Source of the DNA: Paenarthrobacter nitroguajacolicus JCM 14115
GTDB lineage: Bacteria > Actinomycetota > Actinomycetes > Actinomycetales > Micrococcaceae
Reading direction: 5' to 3'
NCBI GenBank assembly: GCA_001313365.1
Contig: BBFS01000002.1
Location: 76,327-140,326, forward strand
DNA: 64,000 nt
In this document: piece after piece, positions 10,356-42,390 of the stretch
How positions within the stretch are numbered: the stretch's first letter is position 1
Layout: every line of letters begins with the position of its first letter
The notes under the pieces: model-generated
Databases searched by the model: none
Told to the model about the DNA's origin: nothing
The model's input: only the letters and a program-made list of their open reading frames with translations
Program-made: the position numbers and the translations under genes

Positions 10356-11827
10356 TCAGTCGACATTCTGCCGGCCCAGCCTCGCATAAACGTTGGGACG
10401 CTTGGATCGGAGGAAGAGCGCGTAAAAGATGCCGCCGAAGAACAGGGCGAAGGTAAAGCTCATGAAGATCACAGTGAGCAGGGCTGAACCGCCGATCAGT
10501 TCAGGGTAGTTGGTGATAGCCAGGTACGTAATGACGCCGAGGAAAATGACACTGACCAGTGGAGCTATGATGCTCTTCCAAATAGATTCAGGTGCAAAGC
10601 TGCGGCGCCGCAGGAAGTAAACGAGCACAGCAAAACTCGTAATGAACATCAGGAGCAGCACTGCAAAAGTACCGCTTCCGCTGGCAATTGGATAAAGGAC
10701 ATCAGGCGCTACGCCCAGAATTGTGAAGACGACCGTAGCGGCACCCCCCCAGATAACTCCGACGGCCAGTGCTGAAACGAACGGTGACTTGTGCTTGGGA
10801 TGCACCCGCCCAAGAACCGTTGGCAACGCGTGATCTCGCGCCAATGCAAAGCTGTACCGCGCCGCGATGTTCTGGATCGACAACATACACGCGAGTACCG
10901 ACGTAATGAGCAGCACCACAGCAATATCCGCAAAGATCTTCCCAACCAGAGCTGCAACGCGTCGTTGAAGAGGTTCACAGTATTGGACTCCGCCGCGGCC
11001 TGTACGTTGTCAGGGCCCAGGAAAGCAATGAACGCCCACGCCGCAAGGGCATAGAAGAGCCCAATGCCGACGACCGCGATGTAGGTCGCCCTGGGTATGG
11101 TCCGGTCAGGGTTCTTGACCTCATCGCGATAAATAACGGTCGCTTCAAATCCGAAGAAGTTCCCGACGGCGAAAAGCAGCGCCAGGCCCAGAGTTGCATC
11201 CCCCCCCAGGGAGGGAAGGGCAAAGACCGCTCCCTGAACTGCCTCCATCCCGTTGGCTGAGAAGGACGCGATGTCAAACACCACCACCACGGCCACTTCC
11301 AAGAGCATGACGACAGTGAGCACCTTCGCCGAGAGATCGATGCGGTTATACGCAAGGAGTGTGGTCACAGCGATAATGCCTAGCGCGTACCAATACCAAG
11401 GGACATCCGGGCCATTCAGGGAATTCATGACGAAACCGTTAAGGGTCACACCGAAGAACGAAGGTGCAAAGAATCCGATGAACATGTAGCCAAACAGCGC
11501 AAGAAAGGCGCCTCCAAGACCAGCAGGCTTTCCCAAGCCGGCCGTAACGAAGGAGTAGAAGCCGCCAGGTCCCTTGACGCTCCGGCTCATCTTCACAAAG
11601 CCCACAGAGAACATCAGCAACATCAGAGTTATAAGGACATAGATAGCTGGGGGCGGTCTGGCCGCTGAACATCAGGAGAACGGGGGGAGAGTTCCCGCCA
11701 CGGTGGCCAGAGGTGACGAGAATGCCAGCACGTTCATCACAAGTTCCCCCACCCCCATGTTGCCGCTGAGTCGGGTTTCCTGGGCATGGCGCGTCGCCTG
11801 AGGAGCGTCAATTGTCTTGTGTTGCAT
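10356..11827 (-). CDS. APC-superfamily amino acid permease, copy 1
   Basis: Inner-membrane amino acid or amine transporter of about 485 residues with 12 predicted hydrophobic segments. N terminus: LSGNMGVGELVMNVLAFSSP; conserved FGFEATVIYRDEVKNPDRTI after TM6 is the APC E-x-x-x-P-x-R-x-I-P signature. It is a close paralogue of the permease at 21672-23146, with the same start, loop and C-terminal signatures (VYARLGRQ). A frame break occurs near 10950. The ATG at 11827 follows GAGGCC. The 17-bp operator at 11890-11906 and a TACTGT -10-like box at 11862-11867 lie directly upstream. The substrate is unknown. Confidence 0.85.
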
Positions 11828-11889
11828 GTAGGCCTCGTCACTTGGTTATGAGTTCCGAATCACAGTATCGATGGCCGGCGTCGCGCCCT

Positions 11890-11906
11890 TGTGCCACCTT
11901 GGGACA
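11890..11906 (-). promoter_or_regulatory. 17-bp operator, TGTGCCACCTTGGGACA
   Basis: Matches the recurrent dyad of this region (consensus TGTNYCANNTTGRGACA). It ends 22 bases from a minus-strand TACTGT box (11862-11867) and 63 bases from the permease start, the same geometry as upstream of the second permease. Confidence 0.7.
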
Positions 11907-11964
11907 CCTTCCAGTGGATGCCCCCAGCGAGACCGGGTAGGCCGTACTATTGCCGCATGTGGAG

Positions 11965-12632
11965 CTAGACGGCACTTCGGATTTCGGCGTTGATCTCGAC
12001 GATGGAAAGGGTCAGGGCCACGGCCCGGTCAGTCAGCAGAGAAAGTTCCTGGTCCCCCCCGCCGCTCCGACCGGCCCATCGACCAACACCGTCAAGCAAG
12101 GTGAGTATCTGTTGGACGGTAGAGGCCGAGAGCTTGAGCCCCATCTCATCGGCTGCAGCAATGAACATGTCCTGGTGGAGACTGGTCCAAAGGTCGGCCT
12201 CTGCGCGGACCTCGTCCTTTAGAAAGCGTGCCACCTTGTCCGTAGCGACCAGTAGGTCCCATATATTCGGTTCGGGCCTTTGCAGTTGCTGAGCCAGGTG
12301 GCCTTGGACAAGCGCAGCCCAGTACTCCTCGGCAGACGTCGCTTCTCGGCCCCAGCCAGAAGGTCATAAGCAAAGGCATGCGTAAACCACCGAAGCGACT
12401 CCGCCACGATCTCGTCTTTTCCCCCCCGGGAAGCTCGAGTAGATGCTGGGTGCTTGCATACCCACCTCCCTGGCTAGGTGCGCAGGCTGACTGACTCAAA
12501 ACCGCGGGTCGCAGCGAGTTGCAGGAAGCCCGCCACGATTCGGCGCCGGGTCGGAGTCTGCATTGACCAATCACGCCCTGACAGGAATTTTCTGACAGCG
12601 GCATTAGCTTGCAGTCGCGGCGACTCGCTCAC
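11965..12632 (-). CDS. TetR-family regulator, paralogue of the one at 42833
   Basis: About 222 residues. The N-terminal helix-turn-helix region reads RRRIVAGFLQLAATRGFESV and, after a break near 12478, a PSIYSSFPGGKDEIVAESLRW-like recognition segment. The C-terminal ligand domain contains IWDLLVATDKVARFL and TLLDGVGRWAGRSG. The same blocks occur in the TetR protein at 42833-43498, so the two are paralogues. The GTG start at 12632 is chosen because it reproduces the paralogue's N-terminal extension. Breaks also lie near 12055, 12310 and 12421. A palindrome of the same type as that of the paralogue lies just upstream at 12673. Confidence 0.75.
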
Positions 12633-12672
12633 ATCACCCACCCCGTTGATCGACAGTGACGACTCCAGCTTA

Positions 12673-12692
12673 GCTAACGAACACTCGTTAGC
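12673..12692. promoter_or_regulatory. TetR operator palindrome, copy 1
   Basis: GCTAACGAACACTCGTTAGC is a perfect 8-bp inverted repeat with a 4-base centre. A near-identical box (GCTAACTAATGGTCGTTAGC, one mismatched pair) lies at 42721-42740 before the paralogous TetR gene, so both are probable TetR binding sites. This copy overlaps the stop codon of the KipI-like gene. Confidence 0.65.
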
Positions 12693-13354: not shown

Positions 13355-13757
13355 GACGCCCTCAGTTCTCCTGCGAAAGGAAAGAAAGCGGGCCGTAGCG
13401 CTTGAACACAGTGCCAGGAACAAGCGCTACGGACCGCAGCTTGGAGGGTCTAGATGCCCCGAATCGGCCACGGCCACGCATCACTCGTATCGCGGCCCTC
13501 CGACATTTCCTGAAGGAGTCGATGTACAGTTCCGCCAGACCGCTTTAGTGCATGGTCGCTGCGCTCTCCGGAATCCGTCTCACTGGAGTGAGGTGAGGTT
13601 CGCAGCCACTCAACGTGGCGTCCTTGTGCGAGCTTCCTGTTCATCATCGGGATCAACCTTAAGAATTAGTTGTGCCTTTTGGTCAATTCCAGTTTGGGTT
13701 CCTGCAGACCTTTCCATCCGTGTCAGTTTGAGACACCGCACACTAGAATTCCCGGAC
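13355..13757. other. Spacer with an operator-like site
   Basis: No gene I can support. It contains an operator-like sequence at 13719-13735. Short open frames on both strands lack family signatures. Confidence 0.4.
13719..13735. promoter_or_regulatory. Possible 17-bp operator, CGTGTCAGTTTGAGACA
   Basis: Fits the regional dyad except for the first base. It is about 365 bases upstream of the KipI-like start, and I see no clear -10 box at the usual distance, so this is the weakest member of the set. Confidence 0.4.
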
Positions 13758-13955: not shown

Positions 13956-16918
13956 TCAGTCCGCCCATCGGGCGCTATACGGATCCAGCGCCACGGCCAG
14001 ATGCTTGCTGGTGTATTCAGGGTCCACCTGCGAGACCTGCATGGCACAACTGAAACCGTCCGTAAGTACGAGTGCACCATCATCAGCCTGACCAATTGAT
14101 GGAATGATCGAGTGCTCCGCAACTTTCATCGACACGTCAAAGTGCTCTGCCTCGAAACCGAAGTTGCCGGCCACACCACAGCACGAGGACGATTCCACCA
14201 GGTTGGAAACTCCCCAGGCTTCCAGGACCCGTTTCTGGCGCCGAACCGAACACGGCATGCTCGTGGCAGTGCGTTTGCAATACTGCTGATTCGGGCGGCA
14301 GGGCCTTCGGTTTCCATCCTCGCGTAACGGCCTCGTCCACGGCGACGGCGAAGGATCGAACTCTGGCCGCGACCCTCGCAGCAGCGTCGCCTCCTACCAG
14401 TTTCGGACCTTCGTCCCGGATGGTGGCAGCGCAACTGGGTTCAAGGACAACAATGTCCCGGTCCGTGCCGTCGTCGAGCTTGCTGATTAACTGAGCCAAC
14501 CGCCGTCGGGCCCCTTCGCGCTGCCCGGTGGAGATCCACGTCAGACCGCAGCAGGCGTCCGGCGTACAGCTACAGATTTGCCTGTGTCACGGAGCACGCG
14601 GGCAGCAGCCGGAACCACCTCGGGCCTAAAGGCGCGGGTAAAGCTGTCGATGAACACCAGGATGTCGGCATTGTCCGCAAATTTTGCTTCCCGCAGCCGC
14701 TTCCGGATCCTGCCGTTCGCCGCAAAAGCCGGGAGTCGTCGTCGGGCACTGATGCCCAGCCACTCCCCCCCGCAAGCCTGAACGGCCGGAATGATGCTCC
14801 CAGGTTGGCCAGTGGCGCCACCCGCGTCAGCAACGGAAGCCACCGCGGCAGCCACCCAATGGAGTAATGCGTGAACGGCCGGATCCGCCCACGATAGTAC
14901 TCATCGACCAATTCTGATTTTGCCTCGGCAATGTCTACACCTGTGGGGGGGCAATCCGTGGAGCAGGCTTTGCAAGAGAGGCAAAGGTCCAGGGCCTCCC
15001 GGACTTCCGGGCTTGACCAGCCATCCTTGCTGCTGCCGTTTGCCCGGGTCAGTTCCTGCAGCACCCGCGCACGGCCACGGGTCGAATCCTTTTCATCCTT
15101 CGTGGCCCGATAACTGGGGGCACATAAACCCGCCGCTGGTGGAACGGCATCTGCCACTCCGATACAGGCGTGGGAGTTACCCACAAATGGACTGGAGACC
15201 TTCAGCAGTTCGCGATTTCCAGAGGAAAGCACGACGGCGGCACCCGGGTCTGCGGTCAGCCCACCGTGAGTGGGTCCAGGCTTGACGACACCTTCCAAGG
15301 CCAGCGAGGCAGCGAAGGGAACTGGATGAACGATGATCCGGGGTTGAGGATTTGTGCCGGATCCCAGAGGTGTTTGAAGGACCTGAAGATGCCGATCATC
15401 TCCCGGGAATACATGACTTCCAGCAATTCGCTGCGTGCCCTGCCGTCACCATGCTCGCCGGACAGCGAGCCACCATGGGTCACCACCAGGTCAGCCGCGT
15501 CATGGGTGAAGTCACTGAAGACCTTACGTCCGGAGTCGCTGCGGAGGTCGTAGTCCAACCGCATGTGCACACACCCCCCCGCTCCAAAGTGGCCGTACAT
15601 GAGGGCGGTGTAGCCGTACCTTTTCACCAGTGGAAGAAGGTCCGCCAAGTAGTCGGCAAGCCGTTCAGGGGCCACAGCAGAATCTTCCCAGCCCGGCCAC
15701 GTTTGAACTCCGTCGATCCGCAGCGACGAGAGTCCGGCGCCGTCTTCACGTACCCGCCACAGCTTTCCTCGCTCAACAGGGTCAGTGACGATCCTGAAAT
15801 CAACAACGCGCCCGTTCGCGCCGAGCTTGTCGGCCAGTTCCTGACAGGAAGTGTCGGCCAGCTGCAAAGTGTCGGCCGAAAACTCCACCATGAGGAAGGC
15901 ACTCCCCCCCCAGGCAACGACTCAACGCTGGCCGCTCCTCGCCGGTGCCTCATGATGTCCACGATCGAAACATCCAGCCCCCCCTCGATGGCGCTCGGCT
16001 TGGCGGACAAAATGGTCATCACGTCACGCAGAATCAATGGTGTCGCGATATCCCAGGCAGAGCAGTGCGGTGGTGACGGGCTTCGGCACGAGGCCCACCT
16101 TTGCCCGCACGATGACAGCGCACGTACCTTCGCTGCCTGCCAATGCGGCGGCCACATCGAATCCGTGTTCCGGCAGCAGATGGCCCACGTGTACCCGGAA
16201 ACCTGCCTGGGAATGGTCTGAAGTTCAACGCGTAGCCTGGCCATGTTCTTTGCGGCCAAAGCCTCCAGGCCCTCGGTAAGCTCCAGCGCACGAGCAACGG
16301 AATGGGTGTCTGATTCGTCAACAGCGCGGAGAAAACCACGCCCGGCCCTCAGGTAAGCGCCGTCAGCAGTGACAAGATCCACCTCCCGCACATGATGCGT
16401 CATGCGCCATAGGCCACAGAGTGATTTCCGCAGGCGTCATTGCCGATGGAACCACCGATGGTGGCCCGGGTCAGGAGGAAGGATCCGGTGCGAATGTCAG
16501 CGTCCCCGTCGTGGCCTTTTCAACGTGGGCGCGCAGCTCACCGAGGACAACCCCAGCGTCGGCCCAGACTGTTCTATCTTCGGCGTCGAGAGCCCCTACC
16601 GCATTCATGCGGCGGGAGAGATCCATCACCAAACCGTCGCCGATGGCGTTCCCTGCCATCGAGGTACCCCCCGCCGCGCGTCGTCATCGGCACTGCCAAT
16701 GCCGAACATAGGCGCACGACTGTTCGTACGTCATCGACACTTTTGGGGGGAAAGCCACGGCGGCGGGTCTTACCCGATAATTCGATGCATCGTAGGAGTA
16801 CTCAGACAGCCTTCGCGAAGAGTCGTCCACCTCGACGCCGTGATGCTCCAACCGGGCGAGCAACTGCCTCAGAGCCGTGTCGCCGTTGTCACCATGGGGG
16901 CATGGTTGCGTTCTCCAT
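13956..16918 (-). CDS. FAD-linked and [4Fe-4S] D-2-hydroxyacid dehydrogenase (GlcD-GlcF fusion, YdiJ/D-2-hydroxyglutarate dehydrogenase type)
   Basis: A long fused flavoprotein of about 985 residues that oxidises a D-2-hydroxy acid (D-2-hydroxyglutarate, D-lactate or similar) and passes electrons to Fe-S clusters. The N-terminal FAD domain shows TRGGGTSMAGNAIG, TLTFAPDPSS and ATIGGSIGNDACGNHS, the classic FAD-binding-4 motifs. The middle holds FGAGGCVHMRLDYDL and HGGSLSGEHGDGRARSELL, which carry the FAD-linked oxidase C-terminal metal site. A ferredoxin-like segment LCLSCKACSTDCPTGVD follows, then Cys-rich CCG repeats (TPDACCGLT and ESSSCCGVAG). Breaks lie near 14767, 14945, 15572, 15905, 15980, 16665 and 16745. 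Start ATG at 16918; a terminator separates it from the ABC operon. Confidence 0.85.
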
Positions 16919-16980
16919 TCGTAGGTTTCGGGAAGAAGTGTAAGCAGCCGCGGTATTCCCTGGATTGTGCCAAAACAGAA

Positions 16981-17010
16981 CGGGCACAGCGGATAAACCC
17001 GCTGTGCCCG
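16981..17010 (-). terminator. Terminator of the sugar ABC operon
   Basis: Perfect 12-bp stem (16981-16992 with 16999-17010) around a 6-base loop. In the minus direction it follows the stop of the binding-protein gene by about 18 bases and is trailed by TTCTGTTTTGG. Confidence 0.8.
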
Positions 17011-17028
17011 CTTGACTGATCTCGCTGC

Positions 17029-17998
17029 TTACTTCAAGAACTCGGAAAGGTTGTCCTTGGTAATGAGCGTGAATGGCAGCGTGTAGCGGTTCTCCACATT
17101 GCCGCCCTTGAGGAAGTCAGTGACAACTTCAACTGCCTTGACGCCCTGTCCAGCAGAGTCCTGTCGGACGGTAGCCGACATTGTCCCGGCTTTGATGTCC
17201 TGCATGGCTGGTTCAGTACCGTCGACGCCGACTACGGCCTTGAACTCGGCAGTTCGTCCCGCGTCAGCAATAGCGGAGGCTGCACCGATGGCCATTTCGT
17301 CATTGTTGGCCACTACGGCGTCGATCTGGCCGGCGCTAAAGCGCTGAAGCGTGTCTTCCATGTTGCGTTTGGCGTCGTCACGGCTTCCCTTCGCCTGGAA
17401 TTCAGCCACGATCTTGAAGTTCTTGTTGATCTTGCTGTCGAAGCCGTTCTTGCGGCGATCGGTCCAGGAGCACCGTAGATGCCCGCGGCGAACACAATGT
17501 TGCCACCCTCCGGAAGAGCCTTGTTCAGGTACTCAGCCTGCATTTCACCGGCCACGGTGTCATCCACACCGATGTAGCTCTTATATCCAACGTCCGAACC
17601 TTCGGCGAACTCGGTGGACAGAATGAACAGCGGTATGTTGGCCGCGATGACACGCTTCGCTGCGTTCTGGCTGGCCTCGCCATCCAAAGGCTGCATGATG
17701 ACGGCGTCTACCTGACGGGTGAGAAGATCTTCAACCTGGTTGAGCTCACTTCCTACGTCCTTCTTGGAGTCGGTGATGTTGAGCTTGACGCCCTTTTCAT
17801 CGGCAGTCTTCTTCATGGCGTCCGTCATGTGCGCCAGATCCGGGTCCTGAAGGTCAAGAACCACAACGCCAATGTTGTAGGACTTGCCTGCAGCCTCCGA
17901 CGTGCCGGGGGGGTACTACTCCCACCGCAGCCGGTGAGTGTGAGGGCTCCAGCGGCCAGCATAGCGGTGGTTACGGCGAGCTTCTGTCGCATTCCCAT
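17029..17998 (-). CDS. Sugar ABC transporter substrate-binding lipoprotein (RbsB/FrcB type)
   Basis: Exported sugar- or polyol-binding protein of about 320 residues. The signal peptide ends in a lipobox (TAMLAAGALTLTGCGG), so the mature protein is anchored through Cys. The Peripla_BP_4 fold is recognisable from NIGVVVLDLQDPDLAHMTDA, VDAVIMQPLDGEA, YIGVDDTVAGEMQAEYL, AVVANNDEMAIGAASAI and VVGVDGTEPAMQDIKAGTM. The ATG at 17998 follows AAAGGAACC. Frame breaks near 17450 and 17910. Last gene of the ATPase-permease-binding protein operon. The family transports ribose, fructose, inositol and related compounds; the context with inositol-type dehydrogenases favours a cyclitol or sugar acid, which is inferred. 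Confidence 0.85.
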
Positions 17999-18090
17999 GA
18001 TGGTTCCTTTCAATGGTTCTGATTGCTGAGGAGATTGTTGGTTCTGTGGACCCCATTGGGTTCGGGGGGGCATTTCGGTTATTGCAGTGG

Positions 18091-19094
18091 CTAGTCAGAC
18101 TTCCACCGGTTCAGCAGCACGGCGAGCACCAGGATGATGCCTTGAACTCCTTGCTGGTAGTACGACGAGACCCCCCCATCAGGTTCATGCCATTCATGAC
18201 CACGCCCAGCAGGAGGACACCGATGACCGTTCCGCGAATGGTGCCTACGCCACCGAAGAGACTCGTTCCTCCAATGACGACAGCGGCAATCACCTGAAGT
18301 TCGTATCCAGTTCCGGCAACCGGCGCCGCGCCGTCCAAGCGCGCAGTGAGAACCAGACCTCCGAGGGCGGCTGTCACGCCACCGATGAGGTAAACAGTGA
18401 AGAGCACCCGGCTGGTGGAGATGCCCACTTTCTTGGCGGACTCTTCGTTGCCGCCTACGGCATATACATGCGAACCGAATTTGGTGCGGCTGAGGACAAA
18501 CTCACAGATAACTGCGGCGATCAAGAAAATAATCACCGGGACAGGAACCGGACCGATGAATCCCGAGCCAAGCCATTCAGCAGGTCCGCTAAGCCCGGAA
18601 ACAACCTGCCCGTCCGTCATGACCAGAACCGCCGTGCGGGCAATGGCCATGGTCGCCAGTGTTGCCAGAAATGGCAGGATGGCTCCCCCCCAGACCACTA
18701 ACGCTGCGCTTAGGAATCCAACCAGCAGGCCTACCGCGAGGCCTGCTACCAGCGGCAGCCAGAACGCGCCACCACTTGCTGGTGCCAGCAATGCGAAGGT
18801 CATACCCGCCAAACCCACAATCGAGCCAACAGATAGGTCGATGCCGGCAGTGATCATGATGAACGTCATCCCTAGGGCGATCAGTCCTATGATGGACGAC
18901 TGCCGGACCACGTTGACTATGTTGTTCAGGGTCAGGAAGTTTGGCGCAGCGACGGCGAGGAAAACGAGGATAACCACGAAAAGGATGATGATCCCATAGT
19001 CACCAATGAAGCGCTTGACCTTGGTGGCCGTCATTCCTTCCTTGAGGTCAGCGGGCCCGAGCTTTGTCTTGATGTTTTCCATTGTGAGACTCAT
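18091..19094 (-). CDS. Sugar ABC transporter permease (RbsC/FrcC type)
   Basis: Membrane subunit of about 334 residues with roughly ten hydrophobic segments. Signatures of the BPD_transp_2 family include MITAGIDLSVGSIVGLAGM, the GGNEESAKKVGIS cytoplasmic loop that contacts the ATPase, and VIGGTSLFGGVGTIRGT. The C terminus runs on as YYQQGVQGIILVLAVLLNRW after a break near 18174. The start ATG overlaps the ATPase stop by 4 bases (ATGA), a sign of coupled translation. An internal ATG (MENIKTK) 12 bases later is an alternative start. Confidence 0.85.
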
Positions 19095-20005
19095 GAGTGG
19101 CTCCCATTCGTAGTACCTGGACTGGCCAACGCATCAACGACATCCATTGATGAGGTGCTTCCGATTTTGCGGCGTTCTTCGGGGGGGATGCCTGCGCCGT
19201 CGTCGATGTAGTCATCCAACGTGCCGTGGGAGATGAGGTGTGCCACTTGTGCTTCGGTAACCTCACCAACCCGGAAGCGACCCACTACTTGGCCTTGGCG
19301 CATGACCGCGAAACGATCTGCCACGGCAAATGCCTCATCCAGCCGGTGAGTGATGATGATGACGCGATGCCGAGATCTTTGAGGCGCTGGGTCACTTCAA
19401 TGAGCTTGTCCACCTTGGCTACCGACAGGTTTGCCGTGGGCTCATCCATGATGATCAAGCGGGCATCGAATGCCAACGCCCTGCCAATGGCGACGGCCTG
19501 ACGCTGTCCGCCTGACAATCTCTTGACCTTGAGCCGCGGATTGATGGGGATGTCCAAGCGTTCGAGTACCCGTTTGGTTTCGAGTTCCATCTTTTTGCGG
19601 TCGATGATCCGCAATAGGGGGCCGAGGATGTTCTTCTGCGGCTCCCGGCCCAGGAAGATGTTGGAACGAACATCAAGGTTGTCCGCCAAGGCGAAGTCCT
19701 GGTAAACCATCTCCACGCCCTGATCGCGTGAAGCTGATGGGGGTTGGGAACTCAGTCGCTTTGCCGTCCAGTTCGATGGAACCTCGGTCTGGTTGGTACA
19801 CGCCCGTCAGTACCTTCATGAGCGTAGATTTGCCGGCGGCATTGTCGCCCAGCAGTGCGAAGGTCTCGCCAGGCTGGACATCGATGCTGACGCCGCGCAA
19901 GGCGGACACTGCTCCGAATGTCTTGTGTATGTCCTTGAGGGCGACCAGTGGAGGGGGGGTCGCCGGTGGTGCTTCGGTCATCTCATCCTCGTTCGTTAGG
20001 GCCAT
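19091..20005 (-). CDS. Sugar ABC transporter ATP-binding protein, single-domain (FrcA type)
   Basis: Nucleotide-binding subunit of about 300 residues with one ABC domain, unlike two-domain RbsA, so the FrcA type fits. Walker A is LLGDNAAGKST, the Q-loop MVYQDFALADNLDV, the signature motif KRLSGGQRQAVAIGRAL, Walker B ARLIIMDEPTANLS, and the H-loop (THRLDEAFAVADR) is recovered after a break near 19365. Breaks also near 19735 and 19955. Two starts are possible: ATG at 20005 and ATG at 19981, the latter with the better ribosome binding site (GAGGATGAG). First gene of its operon; the 17-bp operator lies at 20158-20174. Confidence 0.85.
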
Positions 20006-20157
20006 GTGAATGATCCGGTGAAACACTTGAGGCGCGGTCCATAAAACTACGTTGTTTGACCTGCTGATTCGGGATGGTTCAAAAGCCCCCGAACCGCGTG
20101 ACCTTCGCCACACTGTTTCACTTACTAGAACTTTGACGGATGAGCGTTCCATGGATG

Positions 20158-20174
20158 TGTGCCACTTTGGAACA
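20158..20174 (-). promoter_or_regulatory. 17-bp operator, TGTGCCACTTTGGAACA
   Basis: Member of the regional dyad set, upstream of the sugar ABC operon (153 bases before the ATG at 20005). The -10 box is not clear here. Confidence 0.65.
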
Positions 20175-20208
20175 CGAGAATGATACGTTTCAACAACTCA
20201 ACTAAAAA

Positions 20209-20613: not shown

Positions 20614-21631
20614 TTAGCTCAGGTCCACTTCAACGGCAGTGCCGGTTCGGGCGGATTTCTCCGCAGCATCCGCAAGAATCAATGCAGCACGGCCGTCCTC
20701 GAACCCGGGACTCCTGGAAGGCAGGCCTCGAACAGCACGGAGGAACTCTGCAACTTCCAATCGATAGGCCTCTGCATAGCGCTCCAGGAAGAAGTCCTGG
20801 TATGGCCCTATGGACTCAACGGATCGAGGACCCCAGTGCCGGACGAGGTTATCGTTCTTATTCCCCCCCACCTGCAGCAGCCCCCCCTTTGAGCCGAAGG
20901 CTTCGATCCGCTGGTCATAACCGTAGGCTGAGTGGCGCGAATTGATGATCGTCACGAGTTCATCGTTGGACCCCCCCGCAAGGTGACAACGGTGGAATCG
21001 AAATCGCGCGCGTGACGGATGGCGTCGCTGAATACGTTTGCACCTTGTGCTGAAACTTCAACGATATTTGGAATGAAGTATCGTGCCATATCAAGGTCAT
21101 GGATGGTCATGTCCCGGAAGATTCCGCCGGACTGGGGAAGATAGGCTGCCGGGGGCTCCCCCCCGGGTCCCGGCTGGTGATCAGCAGCTGCTCCAGAACT
21201 CCTATTTCCTCAGCGGCCACGCGGCGTTTCAGCTCCACGAAATGGCGGTCAAAGCGCTTGTTGAAGCCAAGGGCAACAGGAACGTCTGACAAAGCCGCTA
21301 TCTCCCGAAAAGCGTTCACGCGGGAAATTTCCAGGTCGATCGGTTTCTCACAGAGGACTGGCACGTCCGCCTCGATCGCCTTTGCGACGAGGTCCAAATG
21401 AGTCGCCGTGGGAGAGGCCACGATGACAGCATCGATCTCACCTGAAGCGAACACTTCATCAGGATCGTCGGTCACCCGACCACCGAATTCGGCTGCCGTT
21501 TGTTTAGCGCCTTCGATGAAGGGATCACAAACCCAGGACAGCGTAGCCTCGTCCAGGGTAGCCAAGCTCATGGCATGTACTTGGCCTATGCGCCCGGTTC
21601 CGAACAGGCCGACTCTGATTTGATGCGTCAT
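20614..21631 (-). CDS. Gfo/Idh/MocA oxidoreductase, inositol 2-dehydrogenase-like
   Basis: NAD(P)-dependent dehydrogenase of about 338 residues. The Rossmann motif is at the N terminus (RVGLFGTGRIGQVHA), the conserved lysine in VPVLCEKPIDLE, the family GFNKRFDRHF block follows, and IHDLDMARYF contains the catalytic Asp-His region of IolG-type enzymes. Breaks near 20868, 20885, 20970 and 21165. It follows the second APC permease gene by 40 bases on the same strand and is probably co-transcribed with it. A cyclitol is the likely substrate by family, but Gfo/Idh enzymes vary widely. Confidence 0.8.
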
Positions 21632-21671
21632 TGCAGATCTCCAAGTCTATGTGGAAGAGGAACCTTTTTTG

Positions 21672-23146: not shown

Positions 23147-23209
23147 GTAATCCTCGTCGCGAAATTTTGAGTGCTGAATCACACTACCGACGGGGGATCG
23201 TGGAAGCAC

Positions 23210-23226
23210 TGTACCAGCTTGGGACA
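23210..23226 (-). promoter_or_regulatory. 17-bp operator, TGTACCAGCTTGGGACA
   Basis: Regional dyad upstream of permease copy 2. It lies 23 bases from a minus-strand TAGTGT box (23181-23186) and 64 bases from the start codon. Confidence 0.7.
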
Positions 23227-24283: not shown

Positions 24284-24376
24284 AGCTTCCCGGGCCTTCC
24301 CCCCCTCATCGGCACTCCCCCCCGGTTGTTCTCATGTTCGGACGCGTAGCTACTCACCAGCCGCCCTGCCAACCGC

Positions 24377-26128: not shown

Positions 26129-26180
26129 GTCTTTAGCTCCTTGGGTTTGATCGGTCTTGACAGGTAATTAGTGACGATGC

Positions 26181-26954: not shown

Positions 26955-27031
26955 CGGCGACGGGCTCCTCTTGCTTGGCAGTGGCGGACTAGTACGTCCC
27001 ACTAAAACAGCGCGCAGCTACCCCCCCCAGC

Positions 27032-27048
27032 TGTCTCACATTGAGACA
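27032..27048. promoter_or_regulatory. 17-bp operator, perfect dyad TGTCTCACATTGAGACA
   Basis: The most symmetric member of the set: 7-base arms around CAT. It lies in the divergent spacer between the SDR gene (minus) and the Gfo/Idh gene (plus). On the plus side a TAGGCT box (27071-27076) sits 22 bases away, on the minus side a TAGTGG box with an inflated C8 run in between. Confidence 0.8.
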
Positions 27049-27145
27049 CAGAGCACACGGACAACGTTCCTAGGCTGATCAACAGATGCCGCCGTCAGTC
27101 TGCGGCACAGCACCGCGGGACAGCGGTAGAGACTAAGGAGCGCTC

Positions 27146-31907: not shown

Positions 31908-31924
31908 TGTCCCACTTTGATACG
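31908..31924 (-). promoter_or_regulatory. 17-bp operator, TGTCCCACTTTGATACG
   Basis: Regional dyad with one mismatch at the last base, 87 bases upstream of the iolD-like start. No convincing -10 box at the usual 22-23 base distance; an inflated run between them may distort the spacing. Confidence 0.6.
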
Positions 31925-33178: not shown

Positions 33179-33207
33179 GTGATTCTCCGTCAGTAGTTGG
33201 TGAAACC

Positions 33208-33243: not shown

Positions 33244-33265
33244 TCAGTTGCTATGGCTGGTACTT

Positions 33266-35033
33266 CTAGCTGGCCAGGCGCGATTCGCGCGTCTTGGCCG
33301 TTGCTGCTTCGTCAATGCCGCCGTCGGTAATAACGACTCCGTATTGTGCAGCGGCCGCTTCCAGGGAAATCCGTGATTCGCGGAAGTCGTCCAGGACTGC
33401 GAGGACGTCGCGTTCCAGCGGGTCACCGTATCCACCGCCTCCAGGGGGTGATGGATACGACCTTTTCGCCGGACTGGAGATCGTAGCGACCCACCACGGG
33501 GGGGATCTCGCGACGTTCACCGGTAGTGAGATCCTCAACCAGGTTGACGGCTTGGTACCATCGTGGCCGCCGCGGACCCCCCCTTCGGCGGGTTGATCTT
33601 GCCCTCGATTCCGTACGTCAGCGTGACGCTTTCACCCCGGGGTTCCATGGTCACACGGGTCGCGAGGCCACCTCGTTGCCTTCCTGCTCCCCCCGGTATC
33701 AGCAACCAGGGTGCGTTCGTGAACCAAGATGGGGGGGTAGCGCTGCTCATCTACCTCGACGCTGTCGTGGTAAAGCAGTGCGCCGCAGACGGGTCGCTGA
33801 TACGTAGGCCAGCCGTCAACGTAGGGTGTAGCTGGTCCACCGACGCCGCCAACAAGGATCTGATTGACATAGGCGTTGCCGTTACGTTCGTCAATACCGG
33901 AGATGACAGATTTTGCCGGTGCCTGTCCCGCCGCTCCCTCGGCCGTGCCGTAGCCGTCCTCTATTTGGGAGAACGCGGCTTGAACGATGTTGACAACCCG
34001 GTCGGCGAGGTTGGTGGTGCCCGATGAGCAGGAGTACGGGTGTTTGGGAACTCCGACGGCGCAGCCGTCCCGGAGCAGAACTTCCACTCGACGGAAGGTG
34101 CCCGCGTTGCTCGGAAGGTTCTCCGGGATGCCGGAGAGGATGCCGGCCAAGGCAGCACCCGTAGCCGTGGCCTTTGTGAGGTTCAGGCCATTGGGGAGAT
34201 TGTCCGGGTTGTCACGCAGGTCAATGACGATCTTGCCCTGTTTGGGCTTCACTTCAACGGTTGCCTGCAGGTGCACGCCGTCCGCGCTGGTTCCGGGGAA
34301 GGGATCGTGGACCGAGGAGCCATGGAGGACGTACTCGGGCAGCGTTTCGATCGCAGTCGCGGTGAGGCGTTCCGAGTAGTCGAACCAGGCATCCACGAAG
34401 TCCACCAGGTCATCTACACCAAACTTCTCGGCGAGTTCGTGAATGCGGCGTTCGGCGATGCGCGACGCACCGACCGAGGCCAGGTAGTCCCCCGTACCAC
34501 TGGTCAGGTACACGGATGCGGGACCGGCACATACGGATGATGTCGTCGATGTCCTTATGGTCACGCTGAACACGGACACACGGAAGATCAGTGCACCTTC
34601 TTCATACACATCCCGTGCTGTGGCGAAGAAGGTGGTAGGCAGCGAGTTGCCGCAGTCGGCCTGGTGGGCTTGGTGACTGCGTGAAGAGGTGACGTCCATG
34701 GACGAAGATCGGAACGAGGATCACATGGTCGGCAGCATGCGAGTTGCCCATGTAGGGATCGTTGTGCAGGAATGCGTCACCTTCACGGATGTCGTCGTGC
34801 AGCTGCACCATGTCCTCGCCGAGCGGTCCGGCACCGAAGACGTGCACCGGTACGCCCTCTGCTGCTGCCAGCAGCTGGTTATCAGCCGTCAGAACAGCAC
34901 ACGAAAAGTCGCGGGCAGTGTTGATGACAGAGGAACGGGCGGAACGCAGCAGGCCGTTGGTCATCTCGCGGACAATGCCGTCGAATGCATTAGCGAGGAC
35001 CGAGAGCTTTACGGGATCGAATTCGCGCGTCAT
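33266..35033 (-). CDS. hyuB: Hydantoinase B / oxoprolinase-family protein (HyuB)
   Basis: About 585 residues, the usual size of the HyuB subunit that works with HyuA in ATP-dependent opening of hydantoins, 5-oxoproline or lactams. Family blocks: VREMTNGLLRSARSSVINTARDFSCA, EGVPVHVFG, GDAFLHNDPYMGNSHAADHV with metal-binding residues, a SADGVHLQATVEVKP region, YSCSSGTTNLADRVVN and, near the end, ITPGGGGYGDPLERD followed by SLEAAAAQYGVVI. Breaks near 33450, 33500, 33578, 33690, 33735, 34525 and 34690. It starts 2 bases after hyuA ends. Substrate unknown. Confidence 0.85.
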
Positions 35034-35035
35034 GG

Positions 35036-37133
35036 TTACGCCTCCTTACGTGTGAGGTAGATATTGGATCGTTCGTCGAGCGTGGCGTTCCACTCCGGTG
35101 GCACCACGATGGTGGTTGTGGGCTGGTCGATGACAGCAGGGCCAACGATCTTGTCCCGGGGGGGCAAGGGTGACTCCGCGGTATCGCTGGGTGCTGAAAC
35201 TTTCGCCCCCGAACACAATGGAGTCCGTGCGGTGGACTTCAGTCCCACGGCCCACTTCGGCTTGATCTTTTGTCAGCTCAGGCCGCGGGATTTCGACCCT
35301 GACACCCCACGTGATGATCTCCACGCGGCTGTCCGGATCGTGCGTGCCGTTGCGGCGATCGTGCTCTTCGTGGAAGGCACGCTCAACGATGCCCGCTGCA
35401 TCACTGGCGGTATCGGGCGCAGCGTCCAAGTACACACGCAAGTCCCAGGCCTGGCCCGGGTAGCGGGCGTCAACAAAATAGGTGACTCTGGGAGCAGCAC
35501 CCACACCATCGAACCTCTTGGCGAATACCTCTGCCTTGCCCGTTAGCTCCTCAACGGCCCGCGAAGCGAACCAGCGTCGAAGCTACGGGTGTCGTTGTGC
35601 AAGGGCGAGAGGAATTCCGTAGCAATCGGAGCGCGATGCGCGCCGTAGGCCGCGAGCACACCCGCGGTCGCGGGAATCAGGACCGTATCAGCTTCCAGGA
35701 GCACGCCGATGGCGGCCGCCACCATGGCACCTGCACCGCCGCCCGCCACAATCAGGGCACCTCGAGGGTCAACACCCTGTTCCAAGGAAGCTTGGCGGAT
35801 TGCTGTTGCCATGTGGTTGGCGGATACGTCCAAAATGGCCTGTGCAGCCTGCAAAGTATCCATGTTCAAGGGGCCAGCGATGCGGGTATCGATGGCGCGG
35901 ATGGCAGCCTCACGGTTCAGCGTGAATCCGCCTTCAAATCCGTCAGCGTCGAGGTAACCCAAAGCTACGCAAGCGTCCGTGACGGTGGGTTCCTCGCCAC
36001 CGCGACCATACGCGGCCGGTCCGGGAGTACTCCGGGCACTTTGCGGACCCACCCGAAGCAGACCGCCGCCGTCGATCCAGGCGATGCTGCCGCCGCCGCC
36101 GGCGCCAATGCTGGAAACAGCCACCGAAGACAGACCGGTCAGGTGGCCTACAAAGGCTCTCCCAGCCAGGCTTCCCTCGTGTGGCGAACGACGCCCTGTT
36201 CAACCAAGGACACGTCGAACGTGGTGCCACCCATATCGCAGACCACCACAGTGTCGCGATCGGGAGCGGCGGCCGCACCAACCAGGGGTGCCATGGAAGG
36301 GCCGGAGTTCAGCAGCAGTACCGGGCGGTCCAGGACATCAGCGACGTCGAGCACGGCGCCTTCGGAGGTCACTACCAAGAGGTCACCGCCAAACCCATAC
36401 TCCTGGAGGTCGGAACGCAATTTTCCAAGGTGGTCCGCCATCAGCGGTTTCAGGGAGGCATCAATCGACGCTGCCGAGGAACGGCGGTATTCGCGAATTG
36501 TTGGGTTGGCCTCGTTGGACAACGTGTACGGCACATCCGGAAGGATCTCTTGGATGAGTTCCGCCACGCGCTTCTCGTGGGCGTCGTTGATGATCGACCA
36601 CAGGAAAGAAACGGCCACTGCTCGATTCCCTGTTCTTTGAAGGAGCCGAGCACTTCGCGCACCTTCGCTTCATCCAGCGGCACCAGGACATCACCCTCGG
36701 CGGAAATCCGCTCCGTGATTTCGAAGGTCAAGTGACGCGGGATGTACGGCGGAGGGTAGGCAGCTTTGGAGTCAAAAGCATCCCGGCGTCCGCCTTCGCG
36801 AAGCAGGAGGGTGTCGGCGAATCCGCCAGTGGTCAAGAGAGCAGTCTTGGCCACCTTGCCGGTGAGAACTGCGTTGGTAGCGTGCGTTGTGCCGTAAACA
36901 ATCACGTCTGCATTGCGCAGGACGTCATCACCGCTCCAGCCAACCGACTCGGCAGCCCTGCGGACTGAGGCTTCAAAGCCAGTGAAAACGCGGTCATAGG
37001 TGGTTAGGGCCTTGCCGACCGCCATGTCGCCTGTGTTCGAGCCGACCACCACGTCCGTAAACGTGCCACCGGTATCGACGGCGATGCGGTACCTCGCTTC
37101 ACCAGGTTGTGTCTGTACTTCACTCATGGTCAT
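35036..37133 (-). CDS. hyuA: Hydantoinase A / oxoprolinase-family protein (HyuA)
   Basis: ATP-binding subunit of about 695 residues with an actin-like ATPase fold. N terminus YRIAVDTGGTFTDVVVG (phosphate-binding loop), VIVYGTTHATNAVLTGKVAK, then VVVCDMGGTTFDVSLV, the second phosphate loop, and IGAGGGSIAWID. ALIVAGGGAGAMVAAAIG and a beta-rich C-terminal domain with GVRVEIPRP and GPAVIDQPTTTIVVPPEW follow. Breaks near 35155, 35495-35550, 36085, 36165 and 36600. It pairs with HyuB directly downstream. HyuAB-type enzymes also include caprolactamase and pyrrolidinone hydrolase, so a lactam is possible. Confidence 0.85.
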
Positions 37134-37159
37134 CTAACTTTCTTAGAGTTGGAGGGGGG

Positions 37160-38064
37160 TTAAAGTTGGGGCTTGCCGACGCGGTTACGCAGCACGCCCA
37201 CCTTGTCGATCTCGATTTCCACCGTGTCGCCCGGTTCAACCAGACTGGAGGATTCCGCTTGGCACCAATGCCTTGTGGTGTGCCTGTGGCGATCACGTCT
37301 CCTGGTTCGAGAGTGAGGAAACTCGAAAGGTAGGAGACGATGCGGGCTATGGAGAAGATCTGATGCTCGGTATTCGAGCGCTGCACTTCGATGCCATTGA
37401 CCCGTGTCGCGATGTCCAGCTTTTGCGGGTCTCCCACTTCATCCAGCGTGACAATGGCGGGACCCCACGGGGTTGAACCGTCCACGGCCTTACCAGCCAG
37501 CCACTGGTCCCGCGGTACTGGAGATCGCGTGCCGTGACATCGTTGAGAGGCGCAAGGGCTGCGACATAATCCAAGGCTTCGTCCTCGGAGACCTCAGCCG
37601 CCCGCCGTCCTATGATGACGGCGACTTCTCCTTCGAAATCGAGGTTATTGCTGATCTGGGCGCCGCCGATCTCGTCCTCGGGGGGGCCAATCATGGTGGA
37701 GGCGAATTTGGCGAAGACGTCCGGATATTCGGGGGGGAAAGCACGCCCGGTTTCGGCAACGTGGTCTTTGTAATTGAGTCCAATGCACAGAACCTTGGCC
37801 GGATCGGTGATGGGTGTGGTCAACCGGACCTCGTTCAATGCGCCGACGCGGGCCACGGGGGTCCTCGGAGGCAAGTGCTGTAATGCCGGAGGAAATGGCA
37901 GGGATCCGGTCACCGTAGAGTGACAGGAACTCACGGACGGAAGTCGTGGCTCCGTGGATGGCTTCTGTGGAGCTTGAAGGAGCAGCTCCAGGTCATAGAC
38001 GGCATCGTCGATGAGGACTCCCCCCGCGGACGCCCGATTCGTGGTGGTAGGAAACAATCTTCAT
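37160..38064 (-). CDS. Fumarylacetoacetate hydrolase (FAH) family protein
   Basis: Metal-dependent C-C hydrolase/decarboxylase or related enzyme of about 300 residues. The core is VLCIGLNYKDHVAETG, PDVFAKFASTMIGP, DFEGEVAVIIGRRAAEV (metal-binding Glu residues), PLNDVTARDLQ, and LEPGDVIATGTPQGIG close to the C terminus. The ATG at 38064 lies 2 bases after the aminotransferase stop. Breaks near 37250, 37490, 37680, 37730, 37858 and 38020. Related FAH enzymes hydrolyse 2,4-diketo-3-deoxy sugar acids or 2-hydroxy-hepta-diene dioates; the operon context does not decide between them. Confidence 0.85.
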
Positions 38065-38066
38065 GG

Positions 38067-39372
<1,306 letters not shown>

Positions 39373-39391
39373 TTGGTTCTCTCCAGTCTTT

Positions 39392-40343
39392 TCAGTTCAC
39401 AAGGTCGATGAGCGGCTGCCCGGTCAGGGCCAAGCGGACACGTTCAACGGCGCCCTCCTGAAGTGCACCTGTGGAGCGGTTGGAACGCCAGGCAATATGG
39501 GGCGTCAGGATGGTGTTGGGTGCTGTGCGGAGCGGGTGCTCAGCCCCAAGCGGCTCTTCGGCAAAGGTGTCGATGCCAGCACCTGCAATGTGGCCGGAGG
39601 TGAGTGCCTCGGCAAGGGCTGATTCCTCAATGAGACCGCCACGGGATACGTTGACCACCACTGCGCCCCTGCGCATGCGCGCCAGAACGTCCTTGGAGAT
39701 CAGGTTTGCGGTATCCGCGGACAGCGGCAGGTGGAGCGAGACGACGTCGGAATTTTCCAGGATGTCGTCCAGGGAGGTCAGCTCCACAAAGCTCTCCGTC
39801 ACGAACGGGTCGTAGGCCCGGACCCGTGCCCCGACGGCTTGATACATGCGGGCAACGTGTTGACCAATACGGCCCATCCCCAGGACCCCGACCTCGAGTT
39901 CGGACAGAACCGGGGGGGTGTCGTAGCCGATGGTCCCGGCCCAACCGAGGTTCTGGATCGAGGCGTTTCCTGCCGGCAGACGGCGGGCCAATGCCAATCC
40001 CATCGCGAACGCGTGCGAGGCCACTTCCTCCGAAGCGGTGCCCGGGACGATGGATACGGGAATGTCTGCTGCAGTGGCTGCGTCAACATCGATGTTGTCG
40101 TAGCCAATGCCATACCTGATGACAGCCTTGCATTTGGACATCACCGGGAAGTCCGCGGCTGTGAGTTTCGCGTAGGGGGTGATCATGACGATGTCGGCTT
40201 CGGGAAGGCCTTGACGGAAGCTTCGACGTCGGCCGCCGGGTTGAGTGTGTAACCGAACTCCTTTGCGAGTGCGTGCTCGCGGTCAAGGTTCGGAAAGTGA
40301 TGGGGGGGGCCACAAGAATGGTTCCCTGGGCATCGCGGGTCAT
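39392..40343 (-). CDS. D-2-hydroxyacid dehydrogenase (C-terminal-binding-protein / SerA-like)
   Basis: NAD-dependent dehydrogenase of about 315 residues, first gene of the five-gene hyu operon. Conserved IRYGIGYDNIDVDAATAADI, NAD motif VGVLGMGRIGQHVARMYQAVG, the Arg in VVNVSRGGLIEE, the Glu in DTFAEEPLG and the His in LTPHIAWRS. ATG at 40343 after AGGACGACGACT. Breaks near 39912, 40202 and 40303. Upstream lie the operator at 40451 and a TGTACT -10-like box at 40423-40428. The glycine-rich motif and the Arg-Glu-His triad are intact, so it should be active. Confidence 0.85.
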
Positions 40344-40450
40344 AGTCGTCGTCCTGTTCGTTAAGTACCCTTTTCATCTGCCGAGCACCCGTTGGAAGGG
40401 TGCCGGTGTCCGGGTGATTTCAAGTACAACGCGATATGTGCAGGTTCATC

Positions 40451-40467
40451 CGTGCCAATTCGAGACA
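40451..40467 (-). promoter_or_regulatory. 17-bp operator, CGTGCCAATTCGAGACA
   Basis: Regional dyad (first base and one inner base differ from the consensus), 22 bases from a minus-strand TGTACT box at 40423-40428 and 108 bases from the start of the dehydrogenase that opens the hyu operon. Confidence 0.65.
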
Positions 40468-40471
40468 CTGA

Positions 40472-40490
40472 GGTGGGACAGTGTCCCACC
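40472..40490. promoter_or_regulatory. Perfect 19-bp dyad GGTGGGACAGTGTCCCACC
   Basis: Nine-base arms around a single G, placed 4 bases beyond the operator at 40451-40467 and between the hyu operon and its adjacent activator gene. The half-sites TGGGACA and TGTCCCA match the operator half-sites but with a different centre, so a second protein contact or a tandem site is likely. Confidence 0.6.
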
Positions 40491-40518
40491 GGTTGCCGTC
40501 AGGGTGGGCACAGCCCAA

Positions 40519-40551
40519 AAGCAGCCGGCCACTTGCGGCGGCCGGCTGCTT
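40519..40551 (-). terminator. Rho-independent terminator of the AcoR-like gene
   Basis: Perfect 12-bp stem AAGCAGCCGGCC/GGCCGGCTGCTT, trailed on the minus strand by TTTTGGG, 21 bases after the stop of the regulator gene. Confidence 0.85.
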
Positions 40552-40572
40552 CACTACACGGTTTCGGGGGGG

Positions 40573-42390
40573 TTAGAGGTCGAAGCCTCTACTGCGGAAG
40601 TAGTCCATCCGGCGGTAGAGGGTGGAACGGCCAATCTGCAAGGTCTCTGCCGCGAGGCTCCTGTTACCCGATGCTCCTGCAGTGCAGTTCGCAGCTCGCT
40701 GAGTTCGGCGTCCTCCAGACGGGACAGTCGCCCCTTGGTCAGAACCCGATGAAACCCCTGCGGGAGGTCGTCTACGGTTACTTCTGCTCCACTGGCGCGT
40801 TCAACGGCGTTGGACACTACGGCTCGGAGCTGGTCGATGTTTCGCGGCCAGTCAGCATGCGTCAGCGTTGTAAGAAGCCGTCGGGATAACCTCCGGTCTC
40901 CCATCTCTTCAGCAATAGCTACCGCAAGCTGCGGAATGTCCTCACGTCTGTTGCGTAGCGGCTCAACCGAAATCTCCAAGACGTTGAACGCCTCCGAGAG
41001 TATCAAGGTGGCATCGGTTGGATGTGTGATGGTGAAAGCAAGCTTGGTGGTGGCATTGCCCCCCCTAAGGTTCCGGGCGAGCTCTGCTGCCTCGTTCTGT
41101 GAAAGTTCGTCGGCATGTTCGACAATCAATGTTGATGGCAGTTCGGTGGATACTCGATGGATCACATCCCGGAGTTGGTTATTCCGTAGAGAGCCACCCC
41201 CCCTGGCATCGACCACTACGTGCTGCCCACGAGTGTCGGCAATTGCGCCCGCAAGCCGGCGTTTACCGCTACCCAACTCACCAATGATGACAACAGAACG
41301 CTCCTGCTCCACAGCCTTCCGGGCAAGCTCAAGGTCCGCTTGAAGCCCATGCTCGTCCCGTCAAGATGCTTCACGATTCTGTCCGCAGCATCCGGCAAGG
41401 CAGCCTGCGGCTCTACCTCGTCGCTATGGGGGTTGGGTTGGACGTTCCTTCGTGGGTGAGTGTGGGCGGACCACCACGATTGCCCCCCCTACGTTGGCTG
41501 CAGATAAGGTCACGGGCGAAACTTCCAGGGTGGAGATCCCAGGCCCCCCCTGGAGCGAGACCTCACAATTGAGTTCGCGGCCGGAGGACATGACCGCTTT
41601 CGCATACCCGGAGATGACGGAGACGTCGCCGTCCTCCAAGGTCGCCGTTGCCGTTGCGTTGAGCAGGGAGTTCTTGCCGTCCAGGGCAATCACTGCCCGG
41701 TTGCCGCGCCGGCGGGAGATCCTCAAGTATTCGCTGAGTAGAGCCCGCTCCTTTGATGAGGTCCTCACTTCGATGTCGCGCTCAATGCGAGAAGCTACTC
41801 CCTCCAGCATCAGCAAAGTGGACGACGGCTCCAAAGAGGTGACCCGGTTGCCGTAGAGTCAGTCCGATGACGGCCCGAACCCTGTTGTGGAAAGGGTCGC
41901 GGACGAGGGAAGCAAAACACCAGTTACCGCGCATGTCCTCACGGAAGTGCTCTTCGGGCGCGAGCCAGACACCCCCGCCCCCCCTCTTCAAGGCTAGACC
42001 TTCACCATTGCTTCCACAGCTCTCCTCCAGGAGTGAATATCCGGCGGGGGGGAAGCCGTCATCCCGTAGGTAGTCCGCTTTGACCAGTACACCGTTGGGT
42101 GCCGTCAGGTTGACGTAACCGCCAAGGTCCGCGGCGACCTCGTCCAGCTTCTGCAGGTGTGGCCCTGCCGCCTGGATGGTGTGTTCGTCCACGCGACCCT
42201 CGTCAAAGAATCCTCGGTCTGCCACAGCATCAACGCCGGCTGCCCTGCTCCTGTACCAGGAGCGCGCGACGATGGGTCGGATTCCGCTGAGGTCGGCATG
42301 GGGCTGCATGAGGAAGAGTTCGCGTAACCGATCGATTTGAAGCAGCGGCTCTCGCGGCACCCAAGGGGAAAGTACTTCTGCAGAGGACAT
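40573..42390 (-). CDS. AcoR-like transcriptional activator (GAF - AAA+ - Fis-type HTH), sigma54-independent type
   Basis: Regulator of about 600 residues. The N-terminal part (LQIDRLRELFLMQPHADLSG, RPIVARSWYRSRAAGVD) and the GAF domain (YSLLEESCGSNGEGLALKR, CFASLVRDPFHNRVRAVIGL) match AcoR proteins. The AAA+ part has Walker A VVIIGELGSGKRRLAG, Walker B STLIVEHADEL, and LRNRREDIPQLAVAIAEEMG, but no GAFTGA loop, so it should not act on sigma54. The C terminus is a Fis-type helix-turn-helix: AAETLQIGRSTLYRRMDYF. Breaks near 40660, 41065, 41200, 41330, 41440, 41495, 41545, 41850, 41980 and 42045. It is the best candidate to bind the recurrent 17-bp dyad. Confidence 0.85.

Follow-up and report, generated by a model that had tools for sequence, protein, structure and literature searches.

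Inverted repeats of the form TGT/ACA with a 10-12 bp spacer are described as the upstream sites of 15 groups of enhancer-binding proteins in Clostridiales, as for NifA and FhlA (PMC6615313). Regulators that lack the GAFTGA motif and act at sigma-70 promoters are likewise known (PMC3162934, PMC10274813), and the literature searched has little to say about the mode of action of sigma-54-activator relatives in a phylum that has no such factor. Here we examine a 64,000-nucleotide stretch of Paenarthrobacter nitroguajacolicus JCM 14115 (assembly GCA_001313365.1, contig BBFS01000002.1, positions 76,327 to 140,326 of the forward strand; hereafter the window), in which a 17-bp dyad recurs upstream of seven units of a gene cluster adjoining the gene of an AcoR/DhaR-like regulator (40573..42390, minus strand). 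We propose, at a probability of roughly 0.8, that the 40573-42390 product is related to the enhancer-binding proteins but independent of sigma-54, and that it would control a seven-unit regulon through this dyad, working with ordinary RNA polymerase. Because operator, spacing, regulator and targets are seen together and are conserved across several families, the mechanism is directly testable.

Results

All seven dyads that a first-pass annotation of the window had claimed were found where it placed them. They lie before the operon for a 2-hydroxyacid dehydrogenase, an aminotransferase, an FAH-type hydrolase and a CapAB-like pair (site A, 40451..40467, the minus strand reading TGTCTCGAATTGGCACG); before an iolD-like gene (31908..31924); between divergent SDR and Gfo/Idh/MocA genes (27032..27048); before APC permease 2 (23210..23226); before a ribose-type ABC transporter operon (20158..20174); in weaker form before a run of a small open reading frame (ORF), a KipI-like gene and a TetR gene (13719..13735); and before APC permease 1 (11890..11906). 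The dyad takes the form TGT-N11-ACA with inner CA/TG over 17 bp, the spacer of 11 at perfect sites falling within the TGT-N10-12-ACA range of NifA/FhlA-type inverted repeats, while site A and two more sites end in ACG or begin with CGT. With 0-1 mismatch the symmetric form TGTNNCANNNTGNNACA occurs at six places in the window, all inside the cluster (two for the reversed control), and the seventh site, at 40451, shows two departures from it.

In the nearest genome, G001 (about 5 Mb), perfect TGTNNCANNNTGNNACA is found at seven places, against one for the reversed control. Four of these are in this cluster, two lie within ORFs, and one stands 81 bp upstream of the sole other gene with an HTH_8 domain, in the gap that separates this gene from a flavin-monooxygenase-like one. 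When dyads were enumerated blind in the intergenic DNA of the G001 cluster, TGTNNCA-N3-inverse came first, with three occurrences only, the APC permease 2 site having probably been lost through ORF trimming. The first-pass annotation had named chance frequency genome-wide as the outcome that would speak against its reading, and in G001 and its relatives perfect sites occur above that level.

The operator is conserved in every orthologous locus examined. When named genomes were searched with the regulator, 19 loci were returned, from which 17 orthologues (56-86% identity) were kept and two Hyphomonadaceae loci, matched at about 30% identity in the C-terminal part only, were set aside. Scanned with a relaxed pattern at one mismatch, all 18 loci (the 17 named ones and G153) carry site A, placed between the regulator gene and that of the 2-hydroxyacid dehydrogenase; the figure counts loci and not independent events since Leucobacter L027 and L028 give identical matches. 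The loci range from Arthrobacter to Nocardia, Amycolatopsis, Leucobacter, Brevibacterium and Pseudolysinimonas, most carry site A as TGTNYCGATCTGGNACG, and in Brevibacterium two further genes separate it from the regulator. All seven units are preceded by a site in G153 as well, where the regulator shows about 80% identity. The same relaxed scan of the orthologous loci produced, in addition, stray matches that fell within genes or unassigned DNA, at least eight in number.

Dyads of such size are commonly bound by TetR proteins, and two TetR-type genes lie in the window: the first (11965-12641) belongs to the run downstream of site 13719 and has relatives in all five Arthrobacter/Paenarthrobacter genomes searched and in Amycolatopsis, and the second (42833-43498) adjoins the regulator in Arthrobacter-type loci. 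That either of them uses the dyad as its operator and represses the cluster nonetheless strikes us as quite improbable. Within a search that covered 12 of the 17 orthologue genomes, the first TetR gene has no relative at E 1e-8 in six of seven distant genomes (Nocardia, three Leucobacter, Pseudolysinimonas and Brevibacterium), yet site A is kept there; the second is absent from all eight distant loci; and the same dyad recurs upstream of remote genes for proteins with a Fis-type helix-turn-helix (HTH), described below.

The spacing between operator and promoter provides a second line of evidence. The first-pass annotation had set -10-like hexamers at a constant 22-23 bases from four operators, and this geometry could be both confirmed and sharpened: TGTACT at site A (40423..40428, minus strand), TAGGCT at the SDR/Gfo pair (27071..27076, plus strand) and TACTGT at APC permease 1 (11862..11867, minus strand) stand 22 bases away, and TAGTGT at APC permease 2 (23181..23186, minus strand) stands 23 bases away in the window but 22 in G001 and G153, because a C run is longer in the window than in G001, where all four distances are 22. 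Across 32 promoter rows, which are non-independent and of which six outlying ones were read in the plus direction of the locus irrespective of the direction of the gene, the weighted -10 score peaks at a distance of 22 (2.45; the next value is 1.69, at 27), and the best hexamer in the range 15-34 falls at 22 in 19 rows and is tied there in two more. Grouping the rows into 15 classes and taking the better of two neighbouring offsets leaves the peak at 21-23 (2.28-2.31; next 1.90). Each of the nine rows for site A, which span G001, Nocardia, Amycolatopsis, Brevibacterium, Pseudolysinimonas and Leucobacter, shows its hexamer at 22, reading TGTACT, TGTAAT, TTTAAT, TGAAAT or TGGAAT. If the hexamer occupies -12 to -7, the operator would extend from about -51 to -35 and be centred near -43, so that with start sites predicted in this way it would cover the -35 region at a fixed distance from the -10 element, as at class-II-type sigma-70 promoters; the score peak at 22 thus lends support to the earlier proposal of just such an arrangement.

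The regulator might instead bind the dyad chiefly as a repressor that an inducer relieves, for which an operator over the -35 region would be equally suitable, and Caulobacter NtrC, also without GAFTGA, is described with both repressed and activated targets (PMC10274813). We regard this as unlikely, since a 22-base spacing fixed at many promoters suits an activator in contact with the polymerase and is unneeded by a repressor, and we retain activation as the preferred direction of control.

Perfect sites, moreover, travel with strong Fis-HTH genes. Fourteen same-genus genomes hold 29 of them (reversed control 3), and 27 are in the six genomes with an HTH_8 match above 30 bits (7, 4, 10, 5, 1 and 0 sites) as against two in the other eight, a concentration with a Mann-Whitney p of 0.008, for which the 30-bit line was chosen after the table had been seen. 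A perfect site lies within 40 kb of 10 of the 11 strong HTH_8 genes, and 22 of the 29 sites have such a gene at no more than that distance; sites 63-66 bp before Fis-HTH genes number one in G296 and three in G301.

Several loci in these genomes are of interest in themselves. At L108-L111 (G301 and G296) four Fis-HTH genes are each divergent from a gene whose product starts MYSKDGENYFIVDAH, with a perfect dyad between them; from this start we take the divergent genes to resemble an amidohydrolase, and the loci probably represent another regulon of this regulator family. An identical perfect dyad, TGTTTCACATTGGAACA, occurs at L106 1854 (G301) and L107 1814 (G297) with no strong Fis-HTH gene nearby, and these two are possible unlinked targets. 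G297 has three strong Fis-HTH genes as well as two clusters rich in sites.

To look further afield, the second G001 regulator was searched against 197 genomes of the class, yielding 28 further loci in 19 genomes at 26-35% identity; this set replaced a phylum-wide HTH_8 sample. The search used whole proteins, and several of its matches are to the N-terminal sensor alone. Blind dyad enumeration over about 400 bp upstream ranks GTNTCA-N3-inverse first, in 7 of the 28 loci, no pair of which shares upstream sequence by BLAST; the best dyad of 40 shuffled sets reaches a mean of 3.1 and a maximum of 4. TGT-N11-ACA is present in 12 of the 28 (100 shuffles: mean 1.2, maximum 4), with other spacings from 6 to 16 reaching at most 6. 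The upstream regions of L088, L090, L104 and L105 share sequence, and counting them once leaves nine TGT-N11-ACA loci, still above the shuffle maximum of 4. A Pfam scan finds HTH_8 over its cut-off in 22 of the 28 remote proteins and not in the other six (LuxR-type, SpoIIE, GGDEF or GAF only), which form an unplanned control: TGT-N11-ACA is upstream of 12 of the 22 and none of the six (one-sided hypergeometric 0.02, by hand), the top blind dyad of 7 of the 22 and none of the six, and either form of 15 of the 22 (0.005, likewise by hand). These comparisons support an operator rule that would hold for part of the Fis-HTH family.

The protein itself agrees with sigma-54-independent action. It comprises an N-terminal sensor region, a shortened AAA+ domain and a Fis-type HTH with the segment IGRSTLYRRM, and the Fis-type HTH given in the first-pass description is borne out by a C-terminal HTH_8 match (PF02954) of 36.7 bits against a cut-off of 22. 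AAA_lid_14 scores 40 against 27; PF00158 and PF14532 have no match in the G001 regulator, and in the Brevibacterium orthologue PF14532 reaches 26.1 against 25 and PF00158 19.8 against 20.2. An AlphaFold2 model of low confidence (pTM 0.41), used for the AAA+ region alone, gives target-normalised TM values of about 0.62-0.67 against isolated sigma-54-activator AAA+ domains. Walker A is kept (GELGSGK in G001) and Walker B is altered, as judged by eye. The recognition segment is GRSTLYRR in eight of nine aligned orthologues, GRSTFYRR in Amycolatopsis and GRTTLYRR in the G001 paralogue. A GAFTGA-like motif is found in none of 18 proteins, the G001 paralogue included, and among 19 relatives no Sigma54_DBD match passes its cut-off (one falls below it), findings that uphold the earlier claim of a missing GAFTGA and support that of ordinary sigma-70 use.

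The AcoR-like label is loose. The regulator has no GAF domain match (the G001 paralogue has one) and no acetoin gene is named among the cluster genes scanned, so that AcoR proper, the acetoin regulator, was rejected; DhaR, its best NCBIfam match, was rejected at 76.9 bits against the equivalog cut-off of 551 (NF008485).

Several sites have TGGCACG or TGGCACA as one of their halves, and we take TGGCACG to resemble the sigma-54 -24 element, so the sites might belong to a hidden sigma-54 system, as its promoters or enhancers. We consider this very nearly negligible: besides the negative results for Sigma54_DBD and GAFTGA just given, TGG[CA]-N7-[TC]GC occurs within 120 bp of only one of the seven G001 sites, the dyad is symmetric, and Actinobacteria are reported to be without sigma-54 (PMC3162934).

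A number of observations count against the regulon as we propose it, in addition to the late choice of the 30-bit line. The IolD (31908) and small-ORF (13719) promoters have no convincing -10 hexamer at 22 bases, and GFO3 and some outlying rows are also off this pattern. L024 and L030 have, beside cluster genes, no detected site except site A. G300 carries one strong Fis-HTH gene and no perfect site genome-wide, nor one at one mismatch in the 4 kb inspected. Ten of the 22 remote Fis-HTH loci lack TGT-N11-ACA within 400 bp (seven if the top blind dyad is counted), and the phylum-wide HTH_8 sample of 30 loci with 1.5 kb flanks, many with weak HTH matches, gave a single site, with one mismatch. 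The Clostridiales acetoin regulator AcoR has a distinct motif of its own (PMC6615313), so the operator is not a mark of AcoR as such.

Finally, looser patterns are not enriched. At three mismatches the window holds 16 matches against a shuffle mean of 13.7, with 28 of 100 shuffles reaching 16, and at up to one mismatch G001 holds 38 places without clear excess over the 33 of the control; among its 31 one-mismatch places two are in the cluster, and of ten others inspected eight are in ORFs and two intergenic (531779 and 142712). The lack of enrichment in the window meant that significance had to be sought elsewhere, and the absence of excess, there and at up to one mismatch in G001, is what one would expect had chance matches been picked after the fact. 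We consider that explanation very nearly negligible, as it is contradicted by the concentration of perfect sites, by their conservation in orthologous loci and by the blind recovery of dyads in the remote ones.

Just upstream of site A lies an everted half-site pair, TGGGACA-N1-TGTCCCA (40474..40488). As TGGGACA-N1-3-TGTCCCA it recurs in nine loci (G001 and G153 among them) out of 19 checked, the nine all being of Arthrobacter type, and it was not found in eight distant loci; the TGTCCCA half is kept in 11 of the 19, at 13 bases from the operator in nine, 12 in one and 11 in one. The pair may bind further subunits. In G001 a T-tailed hairpin, recognised by eye, lies downstream of the regulator gene, separate from this pair.

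Reading frames in the window required correction. G001 aligns to window 8831-44047 at 96.7% identity, and the window has homopolymers of seven heavily in excess (83 C runs and 59 G runs); of 72 such runs in the aligned block, G001 has four bases at 46, five at 11 and six at 3, with 12 unclear. Lengthened G and C runs are exemplified by window 41059-41065 and 41197-41203. In the window the frame is broken in 22 of the 24 genes of at least 200 amino acids in the block, the regulator gene among them, all open in G001. The surplus G and C runs of seven are a sequence artefact that breaks genes and shifts promoter spacings, and genes were therefore annotated in G001 and their coordinates mapped back. 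Over the 69 kb compared, the alignment ends on both flanks (window 1-8830 and 44048-64000), and the cluster may form a block that is mobile or has been rearranged.

Site A precedes a minus-strand operon (33266..40343) for a 2-hydroxyacid dehydrogenase, a class-III aminotransferase, an FAH-type hydrolase and a hydantoinase/oxoprolinase pair resembling CapA/CapB, followed by a Gfo/Idh/MocA gene (32026-33178). The nearest family of the pair is caprolactamase, whose NCBIfam equivalog cut-off of 1000 is not reached (494.8 and 302.3 bits). The IolD gene (29856..31821, minus strand) scores 746.4 bits against a cut-off of 715 and is followed by an aldehyde dehydrogenase gene (28409-29765). From the divergent promoter run a Gfo/Idh/MocA dehydrogenase gene (27146..28333, plus strand), levoglucosan-dehydrogenase-like but below cut-off, and genes for an SDR, an IlvD/EDD-type dehydratase and a 2-hydroxyacid dehydrogenase (23290..27002, minus strand); identity with levoglucosan dehydrogenase itself is unsupported (309.1 against 650 bits). 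APC permease 2, its start placed by eye past the operator, and IolG occupy 20614..23146 (minus strand), IolG exceeding its cut-off of 355 by 1.9 bits (356.9). The ribose-type operon (13956..20026, minus strand) encodes an ABC ATPase, a permease, a substrate-binding protein and a large FAD/Fe-S oxidoreductase, and the remaining units are the small-ORF/KipI-like/TetR run (11965-13656) and APC permease 1 (10356-11827, minus strand).

Elsewhere, Brevibacterium has sites upstream of the regulator and upstream of a lactone-oxidase-type gene, which a gluconate-type permease gene follows. In L025 an IolE-like gene, below cut-off, adjoins a site, and Arthrobacter sp. S39 (L018 1-8000) and NtRootA1 (L022 1-8900) carry, beside the cluster, a second CapA/CapB-like group that has diverged and has dyads in its vicinity.

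Discussion

In the mechanism we envisage, the N-terminal sensor would bind a compound of the pathway and the regulator, docked on the 17-bp dyad through its Fis-type HTH, would activate at least seven transcription units. At most cluster promoters the dyad would lie at about -51 to -35, a sigma-70-type -10 element standing 22 bases from its edge, and contact between regulator and RNA polymerase would stand in for a proper -35 element in the manner of class-II activation. The two APC permeases and the ribose-type ABC system would serve uptake, and the enzymes encoded alongside would break down a polyhydroxylated, nitrogen-bearing compound, a substrate suggested by the enzyme families of the cluster. 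The dyads and promoter spacings noted in the first-pass annotation are confirmed, and its interpretation as one regulon of at least seven units under the adjacent activator is supported, at the level of comparative genomics, by the 18 of 18 loci, the co-occurrence of sites and regulators and the remote Fis-HTH loci.

More broadly, the chances seem to us about even that Actinomycetia, which seem to have no sigma-54, have turned much of their Fis-HTH enhancer-binding-protein family into ordinary class-II activators sharing one operator rule: TGT-N11-ACA with inner CA/TG and an edge 22 bases from the -10 element. Were this true, regulons and inducible promoters of the family could be read directly from genomes, and we offer the rule for assigning regulons. 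We found no statement of it in the accessible literature on such actinobacterial regulators (including PMC8784404, PMC4428276, PMC4428206, PMC10018347 and PMC4941409; subscription journals were mostly outside its scope). Nor did the accessible literature on hydantoinase/iolD clusters, rhizopine, scyllo-inosamine, calystegine or caprolactamase in Arthrobacter yield a publication on this cluster, whose regulon would unite an undescribed catabolic route combining a hydantoinase-type lactamase, an aminotransferase, IolG/IolD and sugar-acid enzymes.

Set beside described pathways, the cluster shares with myo-inositol catabolism an IolG and an IolD that match NCBIfam equivalog models over their cut-offs, but here they are mixed with a CapAB-like hydantoinase, an aminotransferase, an FAH hydrolase and an IlvD-type dehydratase, and neither IolE nor IolB is among the cluster genes scanned.

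Among regulatory systems, NifA, FhlA and the Clostridiales groups have in common with ours a Fis-type HTH and a TGT...ACA dyad, with a spacer of 11 here (PMC6615313). Most NifA/FhlA-type sites, as described there, are found 100-250 bp ahead of the sigma-54 promoter, whereas ours would be centred near -43 beside a sigma-70-type -10 element, and GAFTGA and, in the relatives, sigma-54 were not found. Escherichia coli DhaR and TyrR, Rhodobacter capsulatus NtrC, Vibrio VpsR and Caulobacter NtrC likewise combine an AAA+ domain and a Fis-type HTH without the sigma-54 loop (PMC3162934, PMC10274813); the present regulator differs from such GAFTGA-less proteins in scoring far under the DhaR cut-off, in belonging to another phylum and in its predicted seven-unit catabolic regulon. 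A similar arrangement is that of prmABCD in Rhodococcus sp. BCP1 and relatives, where a Fis-family regulator gene is likewise divergent from the operon and the authors noted a palindrome that covers the prmA -35 region (PMC4428276), although that case is suggested from one promoter and the substrates are gaseous alkanes. The ingredients are known from these systems; new here are the regulon, its promoter arrangement and the evidence for a wider operator rule without sigma-54.

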